Assembly (NCBI GenBank): GCA_902570155.1 | Contig: CACFXU010000011.1 | Coordinates: 1 to 34,642 of the forward strand | Reading direction: 5' to 3' | Length of the DNA: 34,642 nucleotides | From: an uncultured Alphaproteobacteria bacterium | Lineage (GTDB): Bacteria > Pseudomonadota > Alphaproteobacteria > HIMB59 > GCA-002718135 | Shown here: positions 6,080 to 32,685 of the stretch, piece after piece | Numbering within the stretch: position 1 is the first letter of the stretch | Layout: each line of letters starts with the position of its first letter | The notes under the pieces: model-generated | Told to the model about the DNA's origin: nothing | The model's input: only the letters and a program-made list of their open reading frames with translations | Databases searched by the model: none | Program-made: the position numbers and the translations under genes

Positions 6080-6970
6080 TTAAAAATGTTTTTTTAGTTT
6101 TAATTTCTCTCTTGTTTGTTGCGGGGATAAAATAGACGCTCCCATATCTTCAACAATACATCTTGCCTTTTCAACCAACTGTGCATTTGATGCAAAAACT
6201 CCTTTCTTTAAATAAAGATTGTCTTCCAGTCCTACTCGAACATTGCCTCCTAAAATAACTGCTTGTGCAGCCATAGGCATTTGAGATCTTCCAATTCCAA
6301 ATCCAGACCAAATACCTTCAGCAGGTACCATTTCTGCCATTGCTTTCATTGCGCTCGTTGTTGCAGGTGAACCCCAAGGTATACCAAGGCATATTTGATA
6401 AAAAGGAGGGCCATCAATCAAACCTTCTTTATAAAGTTGGTTAGCAAACCATAAATGACCCATTTCAAAAGCTTCCATTTCTGGTTTCACTCCAAGCTCC
6501 TGCATTTTTTTTGCTGCAGTTCTTAGTTGTATCGGTGTATGAATAAATGTCATGTTTGAGTCACCAAAATTTAGTGATCCGCAGTCTAAAGTACAAATTT
6601 CAGGCAATAACTCTTCAACATGTTCTAATCTGCTTAATGCATCGATCATATCTGTATTTGCTCCCACGGGATTTAAAGGATCTTTACCTGTCCCAACTTC
6701 AAAATCACCACCCATACCTGTTGTAAAATTTAAAACTACATCAGTATCAGAAGAGCGAATTCTATCTGCCACCTCTTTATAATAACTTAAATTTCTAGAA
6801 GGTTTACCATCAGGTTCCCTTACATGTACATGAGCTATTGCTGCACCCGCTTTGGCAGCTTCAATTGAAGCATCAGCAATTTGTTTTGGTGTTATAGGTA
6901 ATTCAGGATGTTTGCCTGCCGTATCTCCTGATCCAGTTACAGCACACGAAATTATTACTTCATTATTCAT
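6080..6970 (-). CDS. BKACE enzyme (DUF849), probable 3-dehydrocarnitine cleavage enzyme
   Basis: A 296-residue beta-keto acid cleavage enzyme. The family uses a divalent zinc and acetyl-CoA to convert a beta-keto acid into acetoacetate plus a new CoA ester; with 3-dehydrocarnitine the products are acetoacetate and betainyl-CoA. The sequence begins with [24 protein letters not shown], typical of the family, and has the zinc-binding HVHVR at residues 47-51, FTTGMGG, and the [14 protein letters not shown] and [14 protein letters not shown] segments. It is the first gene of the minus-strand run ending at the MDR reductase and is followed by L-carnitine dehydrogenase, the characteristic carnitine pairing. 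The diverging thioesterase would complete the route to glycine betaine. The family is certain; the substrate rests on context. Confidence 0.92.
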
Positions 6971-12116: not shown

Positions 12117-13004
12117 TTGAAAAATAAATTATTTGAAAAATATTTTGTTTTTAGTCCTTATTTTTGGCTTGTTCTATTTTTTTTTATACCATTAGCTATA
12201 ATTTTTAAAATATCAATTTCGGTATCAGAATGGGGGATGCCTCCTTATCAAGATATTTTTCTTTTTGATAATGGATTTAAGATCAATACTACATTTGAAA
12301 ATTATGTTTATATATTTACTGATTATTACTACATTGGATCTTTTGTAAACTCTTTGATACTAGCTCTAATATCTACTTTTTTTTGTTTACTTATTGGGTT
12401 CCCATTAGCTTTTTATATTGCGACTTCAAATATCAGATTAAGAAATATCCTACTAGTTTTAGTAGTTGTTCCATTTTGGTCATCATTTTTATTAAGAGTT
12501 TATGCATGGAAAATAATTTTACAGAATAATGGAATTTTAAATGTAATACTTCTAAACCTAGGCATAACATCAGAACCACTTCAATTATTATACAATCAAT
12601 ATGCTGTCATCATGGGAATTGTATACACTTATTTACCTTTGATGATTTTACCACTCTATGGATACTTAAATAAATTTGACTTAAATTTAATTGAAGCATC
12701 AAAAGATTTAGGATTAAATCGTATTAAAACCTTTTTTAAAGTTATTCTTCCTTTGTCTGTTCCTGGAATTGTTGCTGGATCTTTATTAGTTTTTATACCT
12801 GTTGTTGGAGAATTTATTATACCTGAAATGTTAGGTGGTAGTGATAGATTGTATTATGGAAAAATATTATGGGAGGAATTCTTTGTTAATAGAAATTGGC
12901 CAGGTGCTAGTGCTTTAGCTTTTAGTGGCATTATTATTTTGGTTTTGCCAATTGTTATTTTTCAAATACTTTATTCTCGTTGGAGTCAAAAAAATGAAAT
13001 CTAG
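12117..13004 (+). CDS. potH: Putrescine ABC transporter permease 1
   Basis: A 295-residue inner-membrane permease with about six hydrophobic segments. It carries the cytoplasmic EAA loop EASKDLGLNRIKTFFKVILPLSVPGI that docks on the ATPase. The start is TTG at 12117, immediately after the potG stop at 12116, with no intergenic base; the next good start would remove part of the first membrane segment. It overlaps the second permease gene by 11 bases. The order, binding protein then ATPase then two permeases, matches the Pot family. Confidence 0.92.
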   Translation: MKNKLFEKYFVFSPYFWLVLFFFIPLAIIFKISISVSEWGMPPYQDIFLFDNGFKINTTFENYVYIFTDYYYIGSFVNSLILALISTFFCLLIGFPLAFYIATSNIRLRNILLVLVVVPFWSSFLLRVYAWKIILQNNGILNVILLNLGITSEPLQLLYNQYAVIMGIVYTYLPLMILPLYGYLNKFDLNLIEASKDLGLNRIKTFFKVILPLSVPGIVAGSLLVFIPVVGEFIIPEMLGGSDRLYYGKILWEEFFVNRNWPGASALAFSGIIILVLPIVIFQILYSRWSQKNEI

Positions 13005-13788: not shown

Positions 13789-15146
13789 GTAATAAATATT
13801 CTCGCTCCCAAGAACTTATTACTGATAAATAAGCTTGATACTCAACTCTTCTTATCGCAGCAATCGACCTTACAAATTTTTCATTAAATATGGATTTTAT
13901 ATCTTCATCATTTTCAAAAAGAGATAATGATTCATCCATATTTTTAGGTAGATTAGAATTTTTATCTTTAAATGCACTATCTTTGGTTTCTGGATTTGGT
14001 TTTAAATTGTTTTTCATTCCTAAATATCCTGAAGCTAAATTAGCTGCAAAAACTAGATATGGATTTGTATCAGATCCAGGAATTCTATTTTCAATACGTA
14101 TATTCCTTTCCTCAATTGATGGAATTCTGAAACCACAACTTCTATTACCTATTCCCCATTTAACATTTTTAGGGGCTCCCCAAGTTGCAAACAATCTTCT
14201 AAATGAATTTATATTTGGAGCGTATATTGGCATTAATAATGGAGTATATTTTTCCAAACCACCTAAATAGTTTTTCATTTTTTTTTGAAATTTTAGTTGA
14301 TTGATTAAAAAAAATATTCTTATTTTTATCATTATATATCGATTGATGTATGTGCATTGCGCTACCAGGTTGATTCTCCATAGGTTTTGCCATAAATGTT
14401 GCATGAAGTTTATGTTTCAAAGCTGACTGTCTTAGAGTTCGTTTAAATAAAAAAACCTGGTCTGCTAGATCTAAAGGATCACCATGTTGAAAATTAATTT
14501 CCATCTGAGCTGAACCAGATTCATGATTAATAGTATCAATTTCAATATTTTGTGCTTCACAATAATTATATACATCCTCAAAAAGATGATCAAATTCGTT
14601 AACAGCATCTATACCTAAGGCTTGCTTACCTGTTTCTTGTCTACCTGATTGACCCACTGGTACTTCAAGGGGGTAATCTGAGTCAGCATTAGGTTTCACT
14701 AAATAAAATTCTAACTCTGGTGAAACAATTGGAGTTAATTTATCTTTTTTATAGAGTTTAAGAATATTTTTTAGAGCATTCCTACTAGAATTTATAACAT
14801 CATCTCCGTTAAGATTTATTGCATCGCAGATAATTTGTGCAGTAGGGTCGTCGTACCATGGCACTACTCTCATTGTATCAAAATCTGGTTTTAAAATTAC
14901 ATCAATGTCAGTTGGATTGTAAACACTTCTTGGTAAAGCACCGGCAGAGTCCTCAGTTGCATAATCTCCTGATATCGTTTGAATAAAAGTTGACTGAGGC
15001 AATCTGTGACTTTCATCTTCCAGTCCTTTTAAAAATTTATTAGTTGGTAAAATTTTTCCCCTTGCTATACCTCCAAGATCTGGAACTAAACATTCAACTT
15101 CTGTAATAGAGTTTTCATGAAACCAGTTTTGAAATTTTTCAATCAT
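13778..15146 (-). pseudogene. puuA: Gamma-glutamylputrescine synthetase, single-base frameshift in an A9 run
   Basis: A glutamine-synthetase-family ligase that joins glutamate to putrescine using ATP, first step of the Puu pathway. The N-terminal part, from ATG 15146, reads through SPELEFYLVKP, INHESGSAQMEINF and AKPMENQPGSAMHIHQS, then leaves frame. The C-terminal part continues in another frame with LGGLEKYTPLLMPIYAPNINSFRR, NRSCGFRIPS and ENRIPGSDTNPYLVFAA. The junction is a run of nine A on the coding strand (plus-strand T run 14278-14286); eight A would restore one 455-residue protein with no missing parts. All other motifs are intact, so this is either a recent mutation, polymerase slippage that still yields some product, or a sequencing error. 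It diverges from puuB. Identification as PuuA rests on family and context. Confidence 0.85.
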
Positions 15147-19477: not shown

Positions 19478-20851
19478 ATGAGCGATAAATGGTCACCAAA
19501 TAGTTGGAGAAATAAAAATGCTCTTCATATGCCTAACTATCAGAATGAAGATCATCTAAATAAAACTCTAAATGAAATTTCCAAATATCCACCTTTAGTT
19601 TTTGCTGGAGAAGCGAGACTATTAAAAAAGAAACTTGGAGAAGTTTCAAACGGAAATGCTTTTTTATTACAAGGAGGAGATTGTGCAGAAAGTTTTGCAG
19701 ATTTTCATCCAGATAATATTAGAGATACATTTAAAGTTATTTTACAAATGGCTGTTGTATTAACGTTTGGCGCTTCTTGTCCAATTGTTAAAGTAGGAAG
19801 AATTGCTGGCCAGTTTGCAAAGCCAAGATCATCTGCCACAGAAGTTATTAATGATTTAGAACTTGAGTCTTATAAAGGCGATATAATTAATGGGATAGAC
19901 TTCAATCAAAAAGACAGAGATCCTAATCCAGATAGATTAATTCAGGCCTACAATCAATCTGCATCTACACTTAATCTTTTAAGAGCTTTTTCTCAGGGCG
20001 GTTTTGCCAATTTAAATAAAATACATCAATGGAACCTTAATTTTGTTAAAGGTGAGAATGCTGCTAAATTTAGAGAGATATCTTCTAGAATTGACGAATG
20101 CTTATCTTTTATGGAGGCATGTGGAATAAATGGAAACAGTGTAAGACAATTAAATGAAACAGACTTCTTTACAAGTCATGAAGCTTTACTTCTTCAATAT
20201 GAGGAAGCATTAACAAGAATAGATAGTACTTCAGGTAAGTGGTACGATGTTTCAGCTCACATGTTATGGGTAGGTGACAGAACACGACAACTTGATGGAG
20301 CACATATTGAATTTTTAAGAGGTATTGAGAACCCTATAGGTATTAAAGTTGGTCCAAGCACAAAGACAGAAGAACTATTAAAGATATTAGATGTGTTGAA
20401 TCCAAATAATGAAGCTGGAAAAATAACGCTGATATGTAGAATGGGTCATGAAAAAGTTAGTGGAATACTTCCAAAAATAATTAGATCAGTTAATTCAGCT
20501 GGTAAAAATGTTGTTTGGACTTGTGACCCCATGCATGGAAATACTATCAAATCTAACACGGGTTTTAAAACTAGGCCATTAAAAGATATAATTTCTGAAA
20601 TTCAGCAATTTTTTCAAATTCACAGAAGCGAAGGAACATATCCAGGCGGCGTCCATTTAGAAATGACTGGTCAAGATGTTACAGAATGTATGGGAGGTCT
20701 TCAAGAAATAACAGATGAAGATCTCAAAAATAGATATCATACATATTGTGATCCGAGACTAAATGCCTCGCAGTCTCTAGAATTGGCTTTTTTATTATCA
20801 GATTTTTTAAAAGAAGAAAAATTGCTCTCAAAGCAATCTTCAAATTTATAA
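19478..20851 (+). CDS. aroG: Class II 3-deoxy-D-arabino-heptulosonate 7-phosphate synthase
   Basis: A 457-residue plant-type (class II) DAHP synthase, first step of the shikimate pathway: phosphoenolpyruvate plus erythrose 4-phosphate. The start SDKWSPNSWRNKNALHMPNY is characteristic. It has the metal-binding cysteine in LQGGDCAESF (Cys69), KPRSSATE, LRGIENPIGIKVGPST, TCDPMHGNT with the metal-ligand His, and HLEMTGQDVTECMGG near the C-terminus. The class I enzyme of E. coli is unrelated in sequence. Twenty-one bases separate it from nadE on the same strand, and the run parA-glmU-aroG-nadE-gltX-cimA-trmJ is collinear. The gene symbol follows common usage and is not unique. Confidence 0.95.
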   Translation: MSDKWSPNSWRNKNALHMPNYQNEDHLNKTLNEISKYPPLVFAGEARLLKKKLGEVSNGNAFLLQGGDCAESFADFHPDNIRDTFKVILQMAVVLTFGASCPIVKVGRIAGQFAKPRSSATEVINDLELESYKGDIINGIDFNQKDRDPNPDRLIQAYNQSASTLNLLRAFSQGGFANLNKIHQWNLNFVKGENAAKFREISSRIDECLSFMEACGINGNSVRQLNETDFFTSHEALLLQYEEALTRIDSTSGKWYDVSAHMLWVGDRTRQLDGAHIEFLRGIENPIGIKVGPSTKTEELLKILDVLNPNNEAGKITLICRMGHEKVSGILPKIIRSVNSAGKNVVWTCDPMHGNTIKSNTGFKTRPLKDIISEIQQFFQIHRSEGTYPGGVHLEMTGQDVTECMGGLQEITDEDLKNRYHTYCDPRLNASQSLELAFLLSDFLKEEKLLSKQSSNL

Positions 20852-30372: not shown

Positions 30373-30410
30373 GGCCTCGTGGTGGAATGGTAGACACAAA
30401 GGACTTAAAA
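30373..30410 (+). pseudogene. Truncated tRNA-Leu(UAA), 5' half
   Basis: The first 38 bases of a tRNA-Leu: acceptor strand GGCCTCG, D arm, anticodon 5' strand AAGGA and the loop CTTAAAA (30404-30410), then unrelated sequence beginning GACTAGCC. The first 37 bases are identical to the intact gene at 30610. The fourth A matches the intronless loop, whereas the intron-containing copy reads CTTAAAG here, so this half comes from an intronless gene. Joined to the 3' half at 32635 it makes a complete, perfectly paired tRNA. A TTGAAT/TATAGT pair at 30322/30347 may be the old promoter. Confidence 0.85.
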
Positions 30411-30428
30411 GACTAGCCGACTAAGTAA

Positions 30429-30507
30429 CCCTCGCATTACTAAATAATTAAAAATTTAACATTCTTCGGGATTCGTTTTTTGGGAAATTAATAGCCCTCG
30501 TATCACT
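30429..30507 (+). repeat. Pair of 13-base direct repeats near the left end of the element
   Basis: CCCTCGCATTACT (30429-30441) and CCCTCGTATCACT (30495-30507) differ at two bases and are 66 bases apart. They lie in the 199-base non-coding stretch between the 5' tRNA half and the intact tRNA. They are GC-richer than their surroundings. They could be protein-binding sites for a recombinase or accessory factor; nothing else in the stretch looks coding. Confidence 0.4.
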
Positions 30508-30518
30508 TTCTTTTTTAA

Positions 30519-30529
30519 TATTGCGACAC
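30519..30529 (-). repeat. Left-end inverted copy of the GTCGCAATA repeat
   Basis: TATTGCGACAC is the exact reverse complement of GTGTCGCAATA at 32554-32564 near the other end of the element. The 11-base match between the two ends, in opposite orientation, fits binding sites for one element-specific protein at both ends. Confidence 0.5.
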
Positions 30530-30567
30530 AGAAAAATATAAATAATCTTAAAAATTAAGGAAACAAT

Positions 30568-30597
30568 TTGTTTTTTATTGATACATTTTTGTATATA
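30568..30597 (+). promoter_or_regulatory. Possible promoter of the replacement tRNA-Leu
   Basis: TTGTTT (30568-30573) and TATATA (30592-30597) are 18 bases apart and end 12 bases before the tRNA. This would give the element's tRNA its own promoter, independent of the disrupted gene. In AT-rich DNA such matches are common, so confidence is limited. Confidence 0.35.
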
Positions 30598-30609
30598 ACG
30601 ACTTTAAGT

Positions 30610-30888
30610 GGCCTCGTGGTGGAATGGTAGACACAAAGGACTTAAAGCAATTTGAGTGCCATAGTCGAAAGACCGTGAGTAGAACTCCTTAAATTCGGTG
30701 GAGGCTTAACTGCTAATACCGAGCCAAGCCTTGAAGAAGGAAGGTGTAGAGACTTAACAGGGAGCACCGTTTAGGTGAAGATAAAGTCCAGACTACAAAC
30801 ACCTTAATAGGGTGGCAGTGAAAACTGTGGTGGTATGAAAATCCTTGCCCTTTTGGGAGTGCCGGTTCAAGTCCGGCCGAGGCTACCA
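30610..30888 (+). tRNA. tRNA-Leu(UAA) interrupted by a group I intron
   Basis: Exons 30610-30643 and 30838-30888 join into an 85-nt tRNA-Leu. The acceptor stem GGCCTCG/CGAGGCT pairs fully (one G-U at the end), the anticodon stem is AAGGA/TCCTT with loop CTTAAAA, the long variable arm has CCC-TTTT-GGG, the T arm is GCCGG-TTCAAGT-CCGGC, and the CCA end is encoded. The intron sits between U34 and A35 of the anticodon. This is the intact copy of the locus; partial copies lie at 30373 and 32635. If it is the only tRNA-Leu(UAA) in the genome, self-splicing is essential for decoding UUA, a very frequent codon in this AT-rich genome. Confidence 0.92.
30644..30837 (+). ncRNA. Group I intron (IC3-like) in the tRNA-Leu anticodon loop
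   Basis: A 194-nt intron starting after exon ACTT and ending in the conserved terminal G (30837). The internal guide GAGT (30654-30657) pairs with exon ACTT, giving the required G-U pair at the 5' splice site. The core resembles the Azoarcus tRNA-Ile intron closely: AAATTCGGT pairing with ACCGAGCCAAGCC (P3/P8 side), then GGTGTAGAGACTTAACAGGG and AAGATAAAGTCCAGACTA for P7. The 3' part GGTGGCAGTGAAAACTGTGG can form P9. No homing endonuclease is encoded. It should self-splice, using guanosine; this was not tested by folding software. Confidence 0.9.
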
Positions 30889-30890
30889 AT
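30838..30890 (+). repeat. 53-base direct repeat, copy A (3' half of tRNA-Leu)
   Basis: Identical base for base to 32635-32687. It begins at the AAAA of the anticodon loop and ends two bases after CCA. It is the 3' exon of the intact intron-bearing tRNA, preceded by the intron's last G. Its counterpart is preceded by CTT, the rest of an uninterrupted loop. Repeats from anticodon loop to tRNA 3' end are typical attachment-site duplications of tRNA-integrating elements. Confidence 0.85.
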
Positions 30891-30901
30891 AAAAAATAAA
30901 A

Positions 30902-31261
30902 TTACTTACAGAGATACTCTTCCCCGTGCCAATCAAGTTTAGACATTAAAGCTATGTTAGCTTTTCCTGCATATTCTGCATTCCTATCGGACAACTCACA
31001 AAACTTTTGAGCTCTGGCATCTAATTGAGATTTATTTAATTTATATTTAGATAAAACAGTATGCTTAATATAAACTACGCCATTATCAGTTGCGCAAGCA
31101 AAAGATGAATTATAACCAGTAGCTATTGTTGGGTCATATACACAATCTGTATCCATTTTAGGATTGAAAGCAGCCTTTTTTTGACCTGGAGGAGTATAAG
31201 TTGTGCTTACACAACTAATTACAAAAATTAATATTAAAAATATAGTCGAAATTTTATACAT
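30902..31261 (-). CDS. Small Cys-containing lipoprotein, unknown function
   Basis: A 119-residue predicted lipoprotein. The N-terminus MYKISTIFLILIFVISC is a lipoprotein signal peptide with the modified Cys at 17, followed by V and S, so outer-membrane sorting is likely. The mature part has four more cysteines (TDCVYD, FACATD, KFCELS and the penultimate residue of the protein), which could form two disulfides in the periplasm. I do not recognise the family. It ends 13 bases after the intact tRNA inside the tRNA-inserted element and diverges from the protease gene with 21 bp between the starts, suggesting shared regulation. Confidence 0.75.
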   Translation of the reverse strand: MYKISTIFLILIFVISCVSTTYTPPGQKKAAFNPKMDTDCVYDPTIATGYNSSFACATDNGVVYIKHTVLSKYKLNKSQLDARAQKFCELSDRNAEYAGKANIALMSKLDWHGEEYLCK

Positions 31262-31282
31262 TTTTTTGTATGATAATAAATT

Positions 31283-32500
31283 GTGATAAAACTATCAAAT
31301 ATTTTTTTAATATTAATCTTACTTATTTGTTCACAAAAAGCATATTCCTTAAAATCCACAGTTCCTGGAGAGGGTGGTTATGGAACTATTGAATATGAGG
31401 GTGTAATAATTACTGGAACTTTTAATAGTAAATATGATTGGTGCAGAGATTGTGTTTACAGAATTCCTAACGAAAGAATAAGAATTGAGGGCAATTTTGC
31501 AAAAAAACAAATAAAGAAAAATGGTTGGGATTTAGTTCCAAAAGATAATGAAGCTATATTTTATGATGAAGAAAGAGATTTAATATTTACTGGAAGATTT
31601 AAAGTTAAATATGGTGAGGGTTGGGATTTTGGCTCTGGTTTAATTGAATATAAAGGAAAAAAATATTCTTCAAATACTTATGGATATTGGGAAGCTGGTG
31701 AAGAGGTTCTTGAAAAATATAATGAAGAAATTATTGCTGAAAATAATAAAGCGCTAGAATTAGAAAAAAAGAAAAAAGAAAAAGAAAGAAGAGAAAATGA
31801 ACCTTTCTATGGTTATGATGATAATGATATAATTCCAGCTGCTACAGGTTCTGGGTTTTTTATTAGTAATGATGGTAAAGTAGTTTCAAATTTTCATGTT
31901 GTAGACTCATGTGATAACCTTAAAATATTCTATGATGGAAAAGAATATAGAGCTGATACCATTGCTCAAGATACATTCAATGATTTAAGCCTTCTAGTAA
32001 CAAGTGCAAAGCCATCAATTTATTATAATATTTCAGAAAATAATGTTGGTTTACTTGAGGATGTTATAGTAGCTGGTTTTCCACTAGGCAAAAAAGTAAG
32101 TTCTTCAATTAAAACATCAAGAGGAAGTGTAACCTCTCTTTCAGGTTATGGTGATAATTTTTCAAATTTTCAAATTGATGCAGCACTTAATCAAGGAAAT
32201 AGTGGAGGTCCAATAATTGATAATTATGGAAATGTTGTTGGTGTTGCAGTATCAAAATATGGAATGGAAGAGGGTGTTGAAAGTTTTAATTTTGGAATTA
32301 AATCTTCTGTGTTAAGAAATTTTTTAGAATCTAATAACATCAAATATTCTAAAGGAAAAAATATTGAATTAGAAAGAACCGAACTTGCCAAACTTATTAC
32401 TAGTTCAACTGTATTTATAGAATGCTGGATGACGGTAGAAAAAATCAAATTAATTCTTTCTTATGAAGATAATATGAAAGCAATGTTACCATTAAACTAA
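31283..32500 (+). CDS. Secreted trypsin-like serine protease with N-terminal MORN-like repeats
   Basis: A 405-residue exported protein. Residues 1-22 are a signal peptide ending in AYS. Residues about 30-135 hold Gly/Tyr-rich MORN-like repeats (GYGTIEYEGVIITGTF, FTGRFKVKYGEGWDFGSG) with a Cys pair at 54/57. A Glu/Lys coiled segment spans 143-172. An S1C/HtrA-type protease domain starts near 185 with His205 (SNFHVVDSC), Asp234 (FNDLSLLV) and Ser307 (QGNSGGPI). A PDZ domain is absent; the C-terminal 50 residues are unassigned. The start is GTG at 31283; the nearby ATG at 31270 is out of frame. It is the main cargo of the tRNA-inserted element. Targets are unknown; similar proteins occur in SAR11-type genomes as I recall. 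Confidence 0.82.
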   Translation: MIKLSNIFLILILLICSQKAYSLKSTVPGEGGYGTIEYEGVIITGTFNSKYDWCRDCVYRIPNERIRIEGNFAKKQIKKNGWDLVPKDNEAIFYDEERDLIFTGRFKVKYGEGWDFGSGLIEYKGKKYSSNTYGYWEAGEEVLEKYNEEIIAENNKALELEKKKKEKERRENEPFYGYDDNDIIPAATGSGFFISNDGKVVSNFHVVDSCDNLKIFYDGKEYRADTIAQDTFNDLSLLVTSAKPSIYYNISENNVGLLEDVIVAGFPLGKKVSSSIKTSRGSVTSLSGYGDNFSNFQIDAALNQGNSGGPIIDNYGNVVGVAVSKYGMEEGVESFNFGIKSSVLRNFLESNNIKYSKGKNIELERTELAKLITSSTVFIECWMTVEKIKLILSYEDNMKAMLPLN

Positions 32501-32544
32501 TATGCAAAGGACTAGATTTTAATTGTATTCATTTTTTAATTATC

Positions 32545-32581
32545 GTCGCAATAGTGTCGCAATAAGTCGGAATAATGCGAC
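32545..32581 (+). repeat. Phased GTCGCAATA repeats near the right end of the element
   Basis: GTCGCAATA at 32545-32553 and 32556-32564, a one-base variant GTCGGAATA at 32566-32574, and an inverted GCGAC at 32577-32581. The units are 11 and 10 bases apart, one DNA helical turn, so a protein would bind them on one face. The sequence is distinctly GC-richer than its surroundings. One inverted copy lies near the left end (30519). They may be arm-type recombinase sites, excision-factor sites or iterons. The rest of 32501-32634 holds no gene that I can see. Confidence 0.6.
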
Positions 32582-32634
32582 TCTGATAAAAATTTTTGTT
32601 GATAATGGGGGTTTATAGTAATTGAGTAGTTCTT

Positions 32635-32685
32635 AAAATCCTTGCCCTTTTGGGAGTGCCGGTTCAAGTCCGGCCGAGGCTACCA
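32635..32685 (+). pseudogene. Truncated tRNA-Leu(UAA), 3' half
   Basis: The last 51 bases of tRNA-Leu: AAAA of the anticodon loop, TCCTT stem strand, variable arm, T arm, acceptor strand and encoded CCA. It is identical to the 3' exon of the intact gene (30838-30888). It is preceded by CTT (32632-32634), giving the full loop CTTAAAA, but no anticodon-stem 5' strand follows upstream. With the 5' half at 30373-30410 it reconstitutes an intronless tRNA. It represents the right-hand attachment site (attR-like) of the element and lies 11 bases before the VOC-protein gene. Confidence 0.88.

Follow-up and report, generated by a model that had tools for sequence, protein, structure and literature searches.

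The DNA stretch analyzed here, referred to as the window, comprises 34,642 bp of contig CACFXU010000011.1 from an uncultured alphaproteobacterium of the HIMB59 lineage, whose genome (GCA_902570155.1, hereafter G000) amounts to 1.50 Mb in 47 contigs and is 88.9% complete, the window being its contig C11. Within the window, a tRNA-Leu(UAA) gene is split in the anticodon loop by an insert of 2,228 bp, which lies between two copies of the heptamer CTTAAAA and carries a second, complete tRNA-Leu(UAA) gene and two open reading frames (ORFs) (Table 1). The evidence presented below makes it very likely that this insert is an integrated mobile element that replaces the tRNA gene it disrupts.

When the outer halves are joined at the heptamer, a perfect 85-nt tRNA-Leu(UAA) is obtained, identical to the spliced inner tRNA, as an initial annotation of the window had claimed. 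With introns allowed, ARAGORN called one tRNA-Leu(UAA) in the window (30610-30888), consisting of a 34-nt exon, a 194-nt intron at U34^A35 and a 51-nt exon, both exons being identical to the joined outer halves; without the intron option no tRNA was reported in the window, and Rfam, at the gathering score and at E <= 1, retrieved neither a tRNA nor an intron from it. By repeat search, positions 30373-30409 match 30610-30646 exactly over 37 nt, and a 3' repeat is exact over its final 53 bases, from 32635 on. Being exact, this long, and starting at the first base of the tRNA, these repeats are not due to chance. All coordinates and repeats of the initial annotation were thereby recovered, as was its statement that the upstream flanks are unrelated up to the first base of the tRNA, given that the repeat stops there and the sequence 5' of it differs. 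Its description of the inner copy as intact stands insofar as the tRNA-Leu(UAA) is complete, but the intron makes this gene dependent on splicing. A search of G000 with the inner gene returned matches only at the 5' half, the inner copy and the 3' half. The target gene is left split, not being rebuilt at either junction by sequence of the element, and domain scans of the ORFs in the insert revealed no recombinase, as had been noted previously.

Table 1. Coordinates in the window of the split tRNA-Leu(UAA) gene and of the features of the insert.
Feature	Position	Strand	Basis
5' half of split host tRNA-Leu(UAA) (attL side)	30373..30409	+	exact 37-nt repeat of inner gene; adjoins 3' half in empty relatives
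Shared 7-bp core CTTAAAA, left copy	30404..30410	+	sequence; same junction in G095 prophage
Element left end	30411..30609	+	first 33 bases = G095 prophage left end; blastn 49 bp, 90%
Arm-type site candidate GTCGCAAT, inverted	30520..30527	-	4 window matches vs 0.20 expected
Region directly 5' of replacement tRNA, probably its promoter	30557..30609	+	0/53 columns vary
Replacement tRNA-Leu(UAA), 5' exon	30610..30643	+	ARAGORN
Group I-type intron, 194 nt, U34^A35	30644..30837	+	ARAGORN; site and conserved core as in viral tRNA-Leu(UAA) introns
Replacement tRNA-Leu(UAA), 3' exon	30838..30888	+	ARAGORN
Cargo gene, 119-aa protein, lipoprotein-like start (by eye), no Pfam family	30902..31261	-	
Cargo gene, 405-aa protein, trypsin-like protease domain	31283..32500	+	PF13365, E 2.2e-23
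Element right end	32501..32631	+	134-column match (to 32634), 78%, to G095 and G102 prophage right end
Two tandem GTCGCAAT arm-type site candidates, 11 bp apart	32545..32563	+	
Shared 7-bp core CTTAAAA, right copy	32632..32638	+	sequence
3' half of split host tRNA-Leu(UAA) (attR side)	32635..32685	+	repeat search; genome search

The same site in related genomes

The cinA-like protein encoded next to the split gene was searched in 61 genomes, 52 of which gave a match; among the 30 loci returned, one was that of the window, and two belonged to another genus and displayed no tRNA-Leu. By BLAST and ARAGORN, the site is empty in 24 of the 27 other same-genus loci: the cinA-like gene is immediately followed by an intronless tRNA-Leu(UAA), beside which a VOC gene was matched in 23 cases. 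A single intronless gene at the uninterrupted cinA-like/VOC junction is what the initial annotation had expected of relatives without the insert. The three remaining loci are L016 (genome G003), which contains a reduced form described below; L030 (G020), where tRNA-Leu(UAA) is found approximately 2 kb further on from the cinA-like gene; and L031 (G031), where other DNA (L031:1-1550) separates the cinA-like gene from an intronless tRNA-Leu(UAA).

In genome G095 the same site is occupied by a T7-like prophage, the order being 5' half, approximately 36.7 kb of DNA, 3' half and VOC gene. Ten ORFs of this interval were compared with PHROGs, and nine matched phage families (RNA polymerase, primase/helicase, DNA polymerase, head-tail adaptor, capsid, two tail proteins, terminase and integrase), one being without a family. 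After the integrase, a 413-aa tyrosine integrase, come a complete intronless tRNA-Leu(UAA) and then the right end of the prophage. Both prophage ends match those of the insert, with identity for 33 bases past the core on the left and 78% identity over 134 columns on the right. A related prophage is represented in genome G102 by its right part, with a matching right end; neither a left end nor the cinA-like gene was found in the far part of its contig that was fetched (L070). At E <= 1e-30 the prophage integrase was detected in 2 of 162 genomes of the order, namely G095 and G102. Away from this site, G000 and each of the other four focus genomes have a PF00589 match. The initial annotation had suggested a search of relatives for the same ends with a tyrosine recombinase inside, an arrangement that the G095 prophage displays. 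The right end also gave weak, AT-rich matches of at most 41 bits in another 36 genomes of the genus, which we attributed to chance.

At the prophage attachment site (attP), TAGTC and GACTA would flank the core as an inverted repeat; the flanks of the core in the host gene, AAGGA and TCCTT, constitute the anticodon stem. The window contains four copies of the motif GTCGCAAT, where 0.20 would be expected; three of them lie at the element ends. ATTGCGACAC is also present in the prophage left end. The tandem pair of GTCGCAAT was recognized in 10 of 288 loci, all from G000, G095 and G102. Such an arrangement is that of arm-type sites, for which these repeats are candidates. The fourth GTCGCAAT site is located at 12417-12424 of the window, far from the element.

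A genus-wide search was evaluated in 102 genomes, with six candidates scored per genome. Among the matches listed, 84 of the 102 genomes displayed some match, and three (G000, G066 and G003) matched along the length of the left segment, which includes the intron-bearing tRNA. Only this left part is kept in G066 and G003, where the VOC flank comes immediately after the tRNA gene with its intron. The right side was probably lost when the two 51-bp 3' parts of the tRNA recombined, and the gene with the intron would thereby have become a fixture of the host. Within this one genus, the site is thus seen empty, with the prophage, with the element and in the reduced form. In a tree of the flanks (22 genomes, 9.8 kb; G015 and G102 set aside), the carriers are scattered and do not form a clade: upstream flank identity is 93.6% between G000 and G066, 96.4% between G000 and G003, and 99.0% between G003 and G095, and G008, with an empty site, is next to join the G003/G095 pair. 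This scatter can be explained by repeated gain, by gain and precise loss, or by flank recombination.

The replacement tRNA and its intron

Sequence constraint on the inner gene was assessed from three sequences only (G000, G066 and G003), a small sample, in which none of the 85 exon bases vary. The 53 bp directly upstream (30557..30609) are equally invariant, with 0 of 53 columns varying versus 28 of 107 in the adjacent stretch (Fisher P 3.9e-6), and 4 of the 194 intron positions differ, versus the same 28 of 107 (Fisher P 1.9e-10). Within the upstream region, TTTTTGTATATAA recurs in G020 at the same distance 5' of the native tRNA-Leu(UAA), a position that fits a promoter, probably the one from which the replacement tRNA would be expressed. 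A consensus scan called no sigma-70-type site in these 53 bp, and promoter-like sites were not above shuffles (9 vs 12.1). The outer 5' half carries a substitution in G003. This pattern is in keeping with an inner gene that functions and an outer half that no longer does.

The core of the intron is common to the tRNA-Leu(UAA) introns of Agrobacterium phage Atu_ph07 and of a 735-kb phage, and it was also recognized in many viral contigs and in a stretch of pelagiphage HTVC120P. The scan of viral contigs for this core gave at least 120 stretches, of which the 80 listed were examined; ARAGORN read 27 of these 80 as tRNA-Leu(UAA) with an intron, and in 26 of the 27 the intron site is GACTT^AAAATC. 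Outside viruses, related sequence was detected in 14 of 385 genomes sampled from the class, G000 included, and 5 of 14 loci from the other genomes were read as tRNA-Leu(UAA) with an intron. An alignment of 20 sequences, made up of those from the window and G003, two from phage records and 16 from among the 27 viral loci, yielded a consensus fold of 43 pairs, 24 of them with some sequence changed on both sides. The hallmarks of group I introns are present, i.e., U before the intron, G at its end, a conserved core and covarying helices common to known members, and the group I family RF00028 was matched by three of seven sources of related sequence (viral L165, L124 and L143). The intron is thus of a known kind at its usual site and is not phage-specific; it can be described as group I-type, with splicing predicted. 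Introns of this kind in tRNA-Leu(UAA) genes of phages and of other Alphaproteobacteria share the site, ends and conserved core of the window intron; what sets the latter apart is that it interrupts a replacement tRNA brought in by an element directed at this very loop. As for HTVC120P, the stretch L075:2501-2653 (HTVC120P 19655-19807) is 76% identical to the window intron and lies between two ORFs annotated as capsid protein, probably corresponding to a group I intron that splits a pelagiphage capsid gene.

Proposed integration with a replacement tRNA and competing explanations

We give a probability of about 85% to the segment being a mobile element that integrated here, replaces the tRNA gene it disrupts and uses the att system of a T7-like prophage. 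The 24 of 27 empty sites and the prophage at the same site support the reading of the initial annotation, namely that the element inserted in the anticodon loop and brought a replacement tRNA inside it. According to the mechanism that we propose, a tyrosine recombinase would have joined an attP sharing only the 7-bp CTTAAAA with the anticodon loop of the sole tRNA-Leu(UAA) detected in the host; since attP shares only this core with the host gene, the gene would be split and not rebuilt. The tRNA-Leu(UAA) of the element, with its own upstream region and group I-type intron, would serve the cell after splicing. The joining was probably performed by the T7-like prophage integrase or a relative of it. 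The element looks like a minimal passenger, or a remnant, of a virus that shares its site, and matches to phages and proteins suggest that the host setting is probably marine.

Several observations weigh against this interpretation. ORF and domain scans revealed no integrase in the insert; the prophage integrase was not found in G000, and the sole PF00589 tyrosine recombinase found in that genome lies elsewhere (376-aa ORF, contig C3, L290:1465-2595). Scans of viral contigs recovered neither the exact left end nor any match to the integrase patterns, and the attP pattern gave only two contigs, which were read and judged chance. Just one genome is known to have the 2.2-kb form in full, the patchy pattern could equally stem from precise excision or flank recombination, and the genus genomes are 53-96% complete, so further tRNA copies could be missed. 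Regarding the intron, that of the window had no Rfam match at E <= 1, RF00028 included, and four sources of related sequence (G066, Atu_ph07, LR756501 and HTVC120P) had no RF00028 match at E <= 0.1.

The favoured reading can take two forms. In the first, deletions would have left 2.2 kb of a G095-like prophage, with cargo gained meanwhile and mobility lost, and we give it slightly less than an even chance. It agrees with the lack of an integrase, with the complete form being found in one genome only, and with G066 and G003 keeping only the left part. Conversely, no phage gene was recognized in the insert (only a protease family), both ends and the arm-like sites are preserved, and both cargo ORFs are open, each with a 68% relative elsewhere; moreover, the tRNA stands near the left end in the window and beside the right end in the prophages. 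The second form, which we hold tentatively, is an element that has phage-type att ends but is not autonomous, depending on the integrase of a T7-like phage to integrate and excise it in trans. In its favour, the insert has complete ends with arm-like sites, the replacement tRNA and open cargo genes, and relatives contain a possible helper prophage; against it, the right ends are just 78% identical, and no packaging signal, circle or virion copy has been demonstrated.

An extension of the second form attributes a protective role to the intron: a minimal phage parasite would use the T7-like phage integrase, and the intron, interrupting the crossover core, would block renewed attack on the replacement gene while the mature tRNA stays unchanged. 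If so, loss of the right part would fix the replacement, providing a route for introns into chromosomal tRNA genes. The G102 prophage may reach a similar protection by other means, as its tRNA differs from the host gene in 85 nt solely by a compensatory change of one anticodon-stem pair. By eye, the anticodon stems of the tRNAs of mycobacteriophages Gaia, LeBron and Wintermute also do not match those in the 3' parts carried by Courthouse and TribleTrouble, a weak comparison, as the latter are stand-ins for host genes that may differ from the host and the phage tRNAs have diverged overall. This extension appears doubtful: the intron site is the usual one for its family (26 of 27 viral cases), and, against any general rule, uncultured Chosvirus KM23-C739 has GACTTAAAATC within its own tRNA as well as in the gap between integrase and RNA polymerase.

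Two successive ordinary insertions, one giving the 5' half and the other the 3' half, followed by deletion, had been put forward as an alternative in the initial annotation. They would produce the observed layout (5' half, B, full tRNA, A, 3' half). However, the left end of B and the right end of A are the two ends of a single G095 prophage, and the insert thus has the left and right ends of one att system, which is unexpected from two insertions; matching inverted arm-like sites also occur at both ends, and we regard this scenario as improbable. The long direct repeats might also suggest that the tRNA gene was duplicated in tandem, or that assembly or amplification produced an artefact, as might the AG- names of relatives, which point to amplified single cells (one title says MAG, metagenome-assembled genome). 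Either is very hard to sustain when the repeat stops at the first base of the tRNA with different sequence 5' of it, and when G066 and G003 share the left part, and G095 and G102 the right end.

Known systems and cargo genes

The closest precedent is tRNA-dependent lysogeny, described in actinobacteriophages such as Fionnbharth, LeBron and Gaia by authors who thought the mechanism plausible outside this group (Guerrero-Bustamante and Hatfull, 2024; PMC10865867). In both cases a short core lies in the tRNA (8-17 bp in Table 2 of that report, 7 bp here), the host tRNA is not rebuilt, and the integrating DNA carries a tRNA of the disrupted isotype. Conversely, those are whole actinobacterial phages with an integrase, whereas here a 2.2-kb integrase-less element resides in an alphaproteobacterium and its replacement tRNA has an intron, neither an integrase-less form nor an intron being mentioned in the sections of that report consulted (PMC10865867). 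Membership implies a phage encoding a tyrosine integrase, which the G095 prophage is and the 2.2-kb insert is not. Thus, the insert works like tRNA-dependent lysogeny but is not a member, because integrase and phage genes are absent. The departure from known elements asserted in the initial annotation applies to islands that rebuild their target gene, and is tempered by this precedent. Ordinary tRNA genomic islands, as outlined for Islander (PMC4383910), have the tRNA target and direct repeats in common with the insert, but restore the split gene from island sequence, whereas the element in the window brings a whole separate gene.

The G095 and G102 prophages share with the insert the site, matching ends and a complete tRNA-Leu(UAA) of their own, the G095 prophage differing in its size, phage genes and integrase, and in its intronless tRNA beside the right end. 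Pelagiphages HTVC109P and HTVC105P and the uncultured S35-C6 (Pelagivirus) are Autographiviridae with an integrase alongside a tRNA-Leu-type 5' part; they differ in that this part is approximately 40 bp, with no complete tRNA in the 8-kb stretches fetched. In KM23-C739 (L289, KT997847.1; record positions ~6376-6640 and 14652-14738), the integrase-RNA polymerase gap contains an 11-bp match to the tRNA-Leu(UAA) loop, GACTTAAAATC and GTCGCAATA; its own tRNA-Leu(UAA) is also present, and it may constitute a second tRNA-dependent integration system.

Among the papers listed in a search of a literature collection, none described this element, and no paper in that collection combines AEGEAN-169 and prophage. 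What appears new is the alphaproteobacterial, probably marine setting, the integrase-less 2.2-kb form with two cargo genes, the conserved intron-bearing replacement tRNA and, apparently, the relatives that lost the right part yet kept that tRNA. On the favoured reading, tRNA-replacing integration would extend from actinobacteriophages to a T7-like alphaproteobacterial prophage and a 2.2-kb integrase-less element, suggesting a path by which an intron-bearing tRNA gene may assume the host function.

Regarding the cargo genes, a protein database search yielded two relatives of the 119-aa protein, at 99% and 68% identity, and those of the 405-aa trypsin-like protein likewise stand at 99% and then 68%. 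At E <= 1e-10 the latter matches 85 of the 102 genus genomes, G000 included; among the matches listed, most show approximately 29% identity and lie in longer ORFs, presumably representing an ordinary protease. PHROGs assigned a protease family to the insert, among weak matches, and in a comparison with defence systems the cargo matched only the protease part of RT-Protease_XI and PDC-M35A, so that a role of the cargo in defence is only hinted at. Before the protease domain, the trypsin-like gene contains two copies of one segment (31404-31454 and 31581-31631) that are 73% identical.

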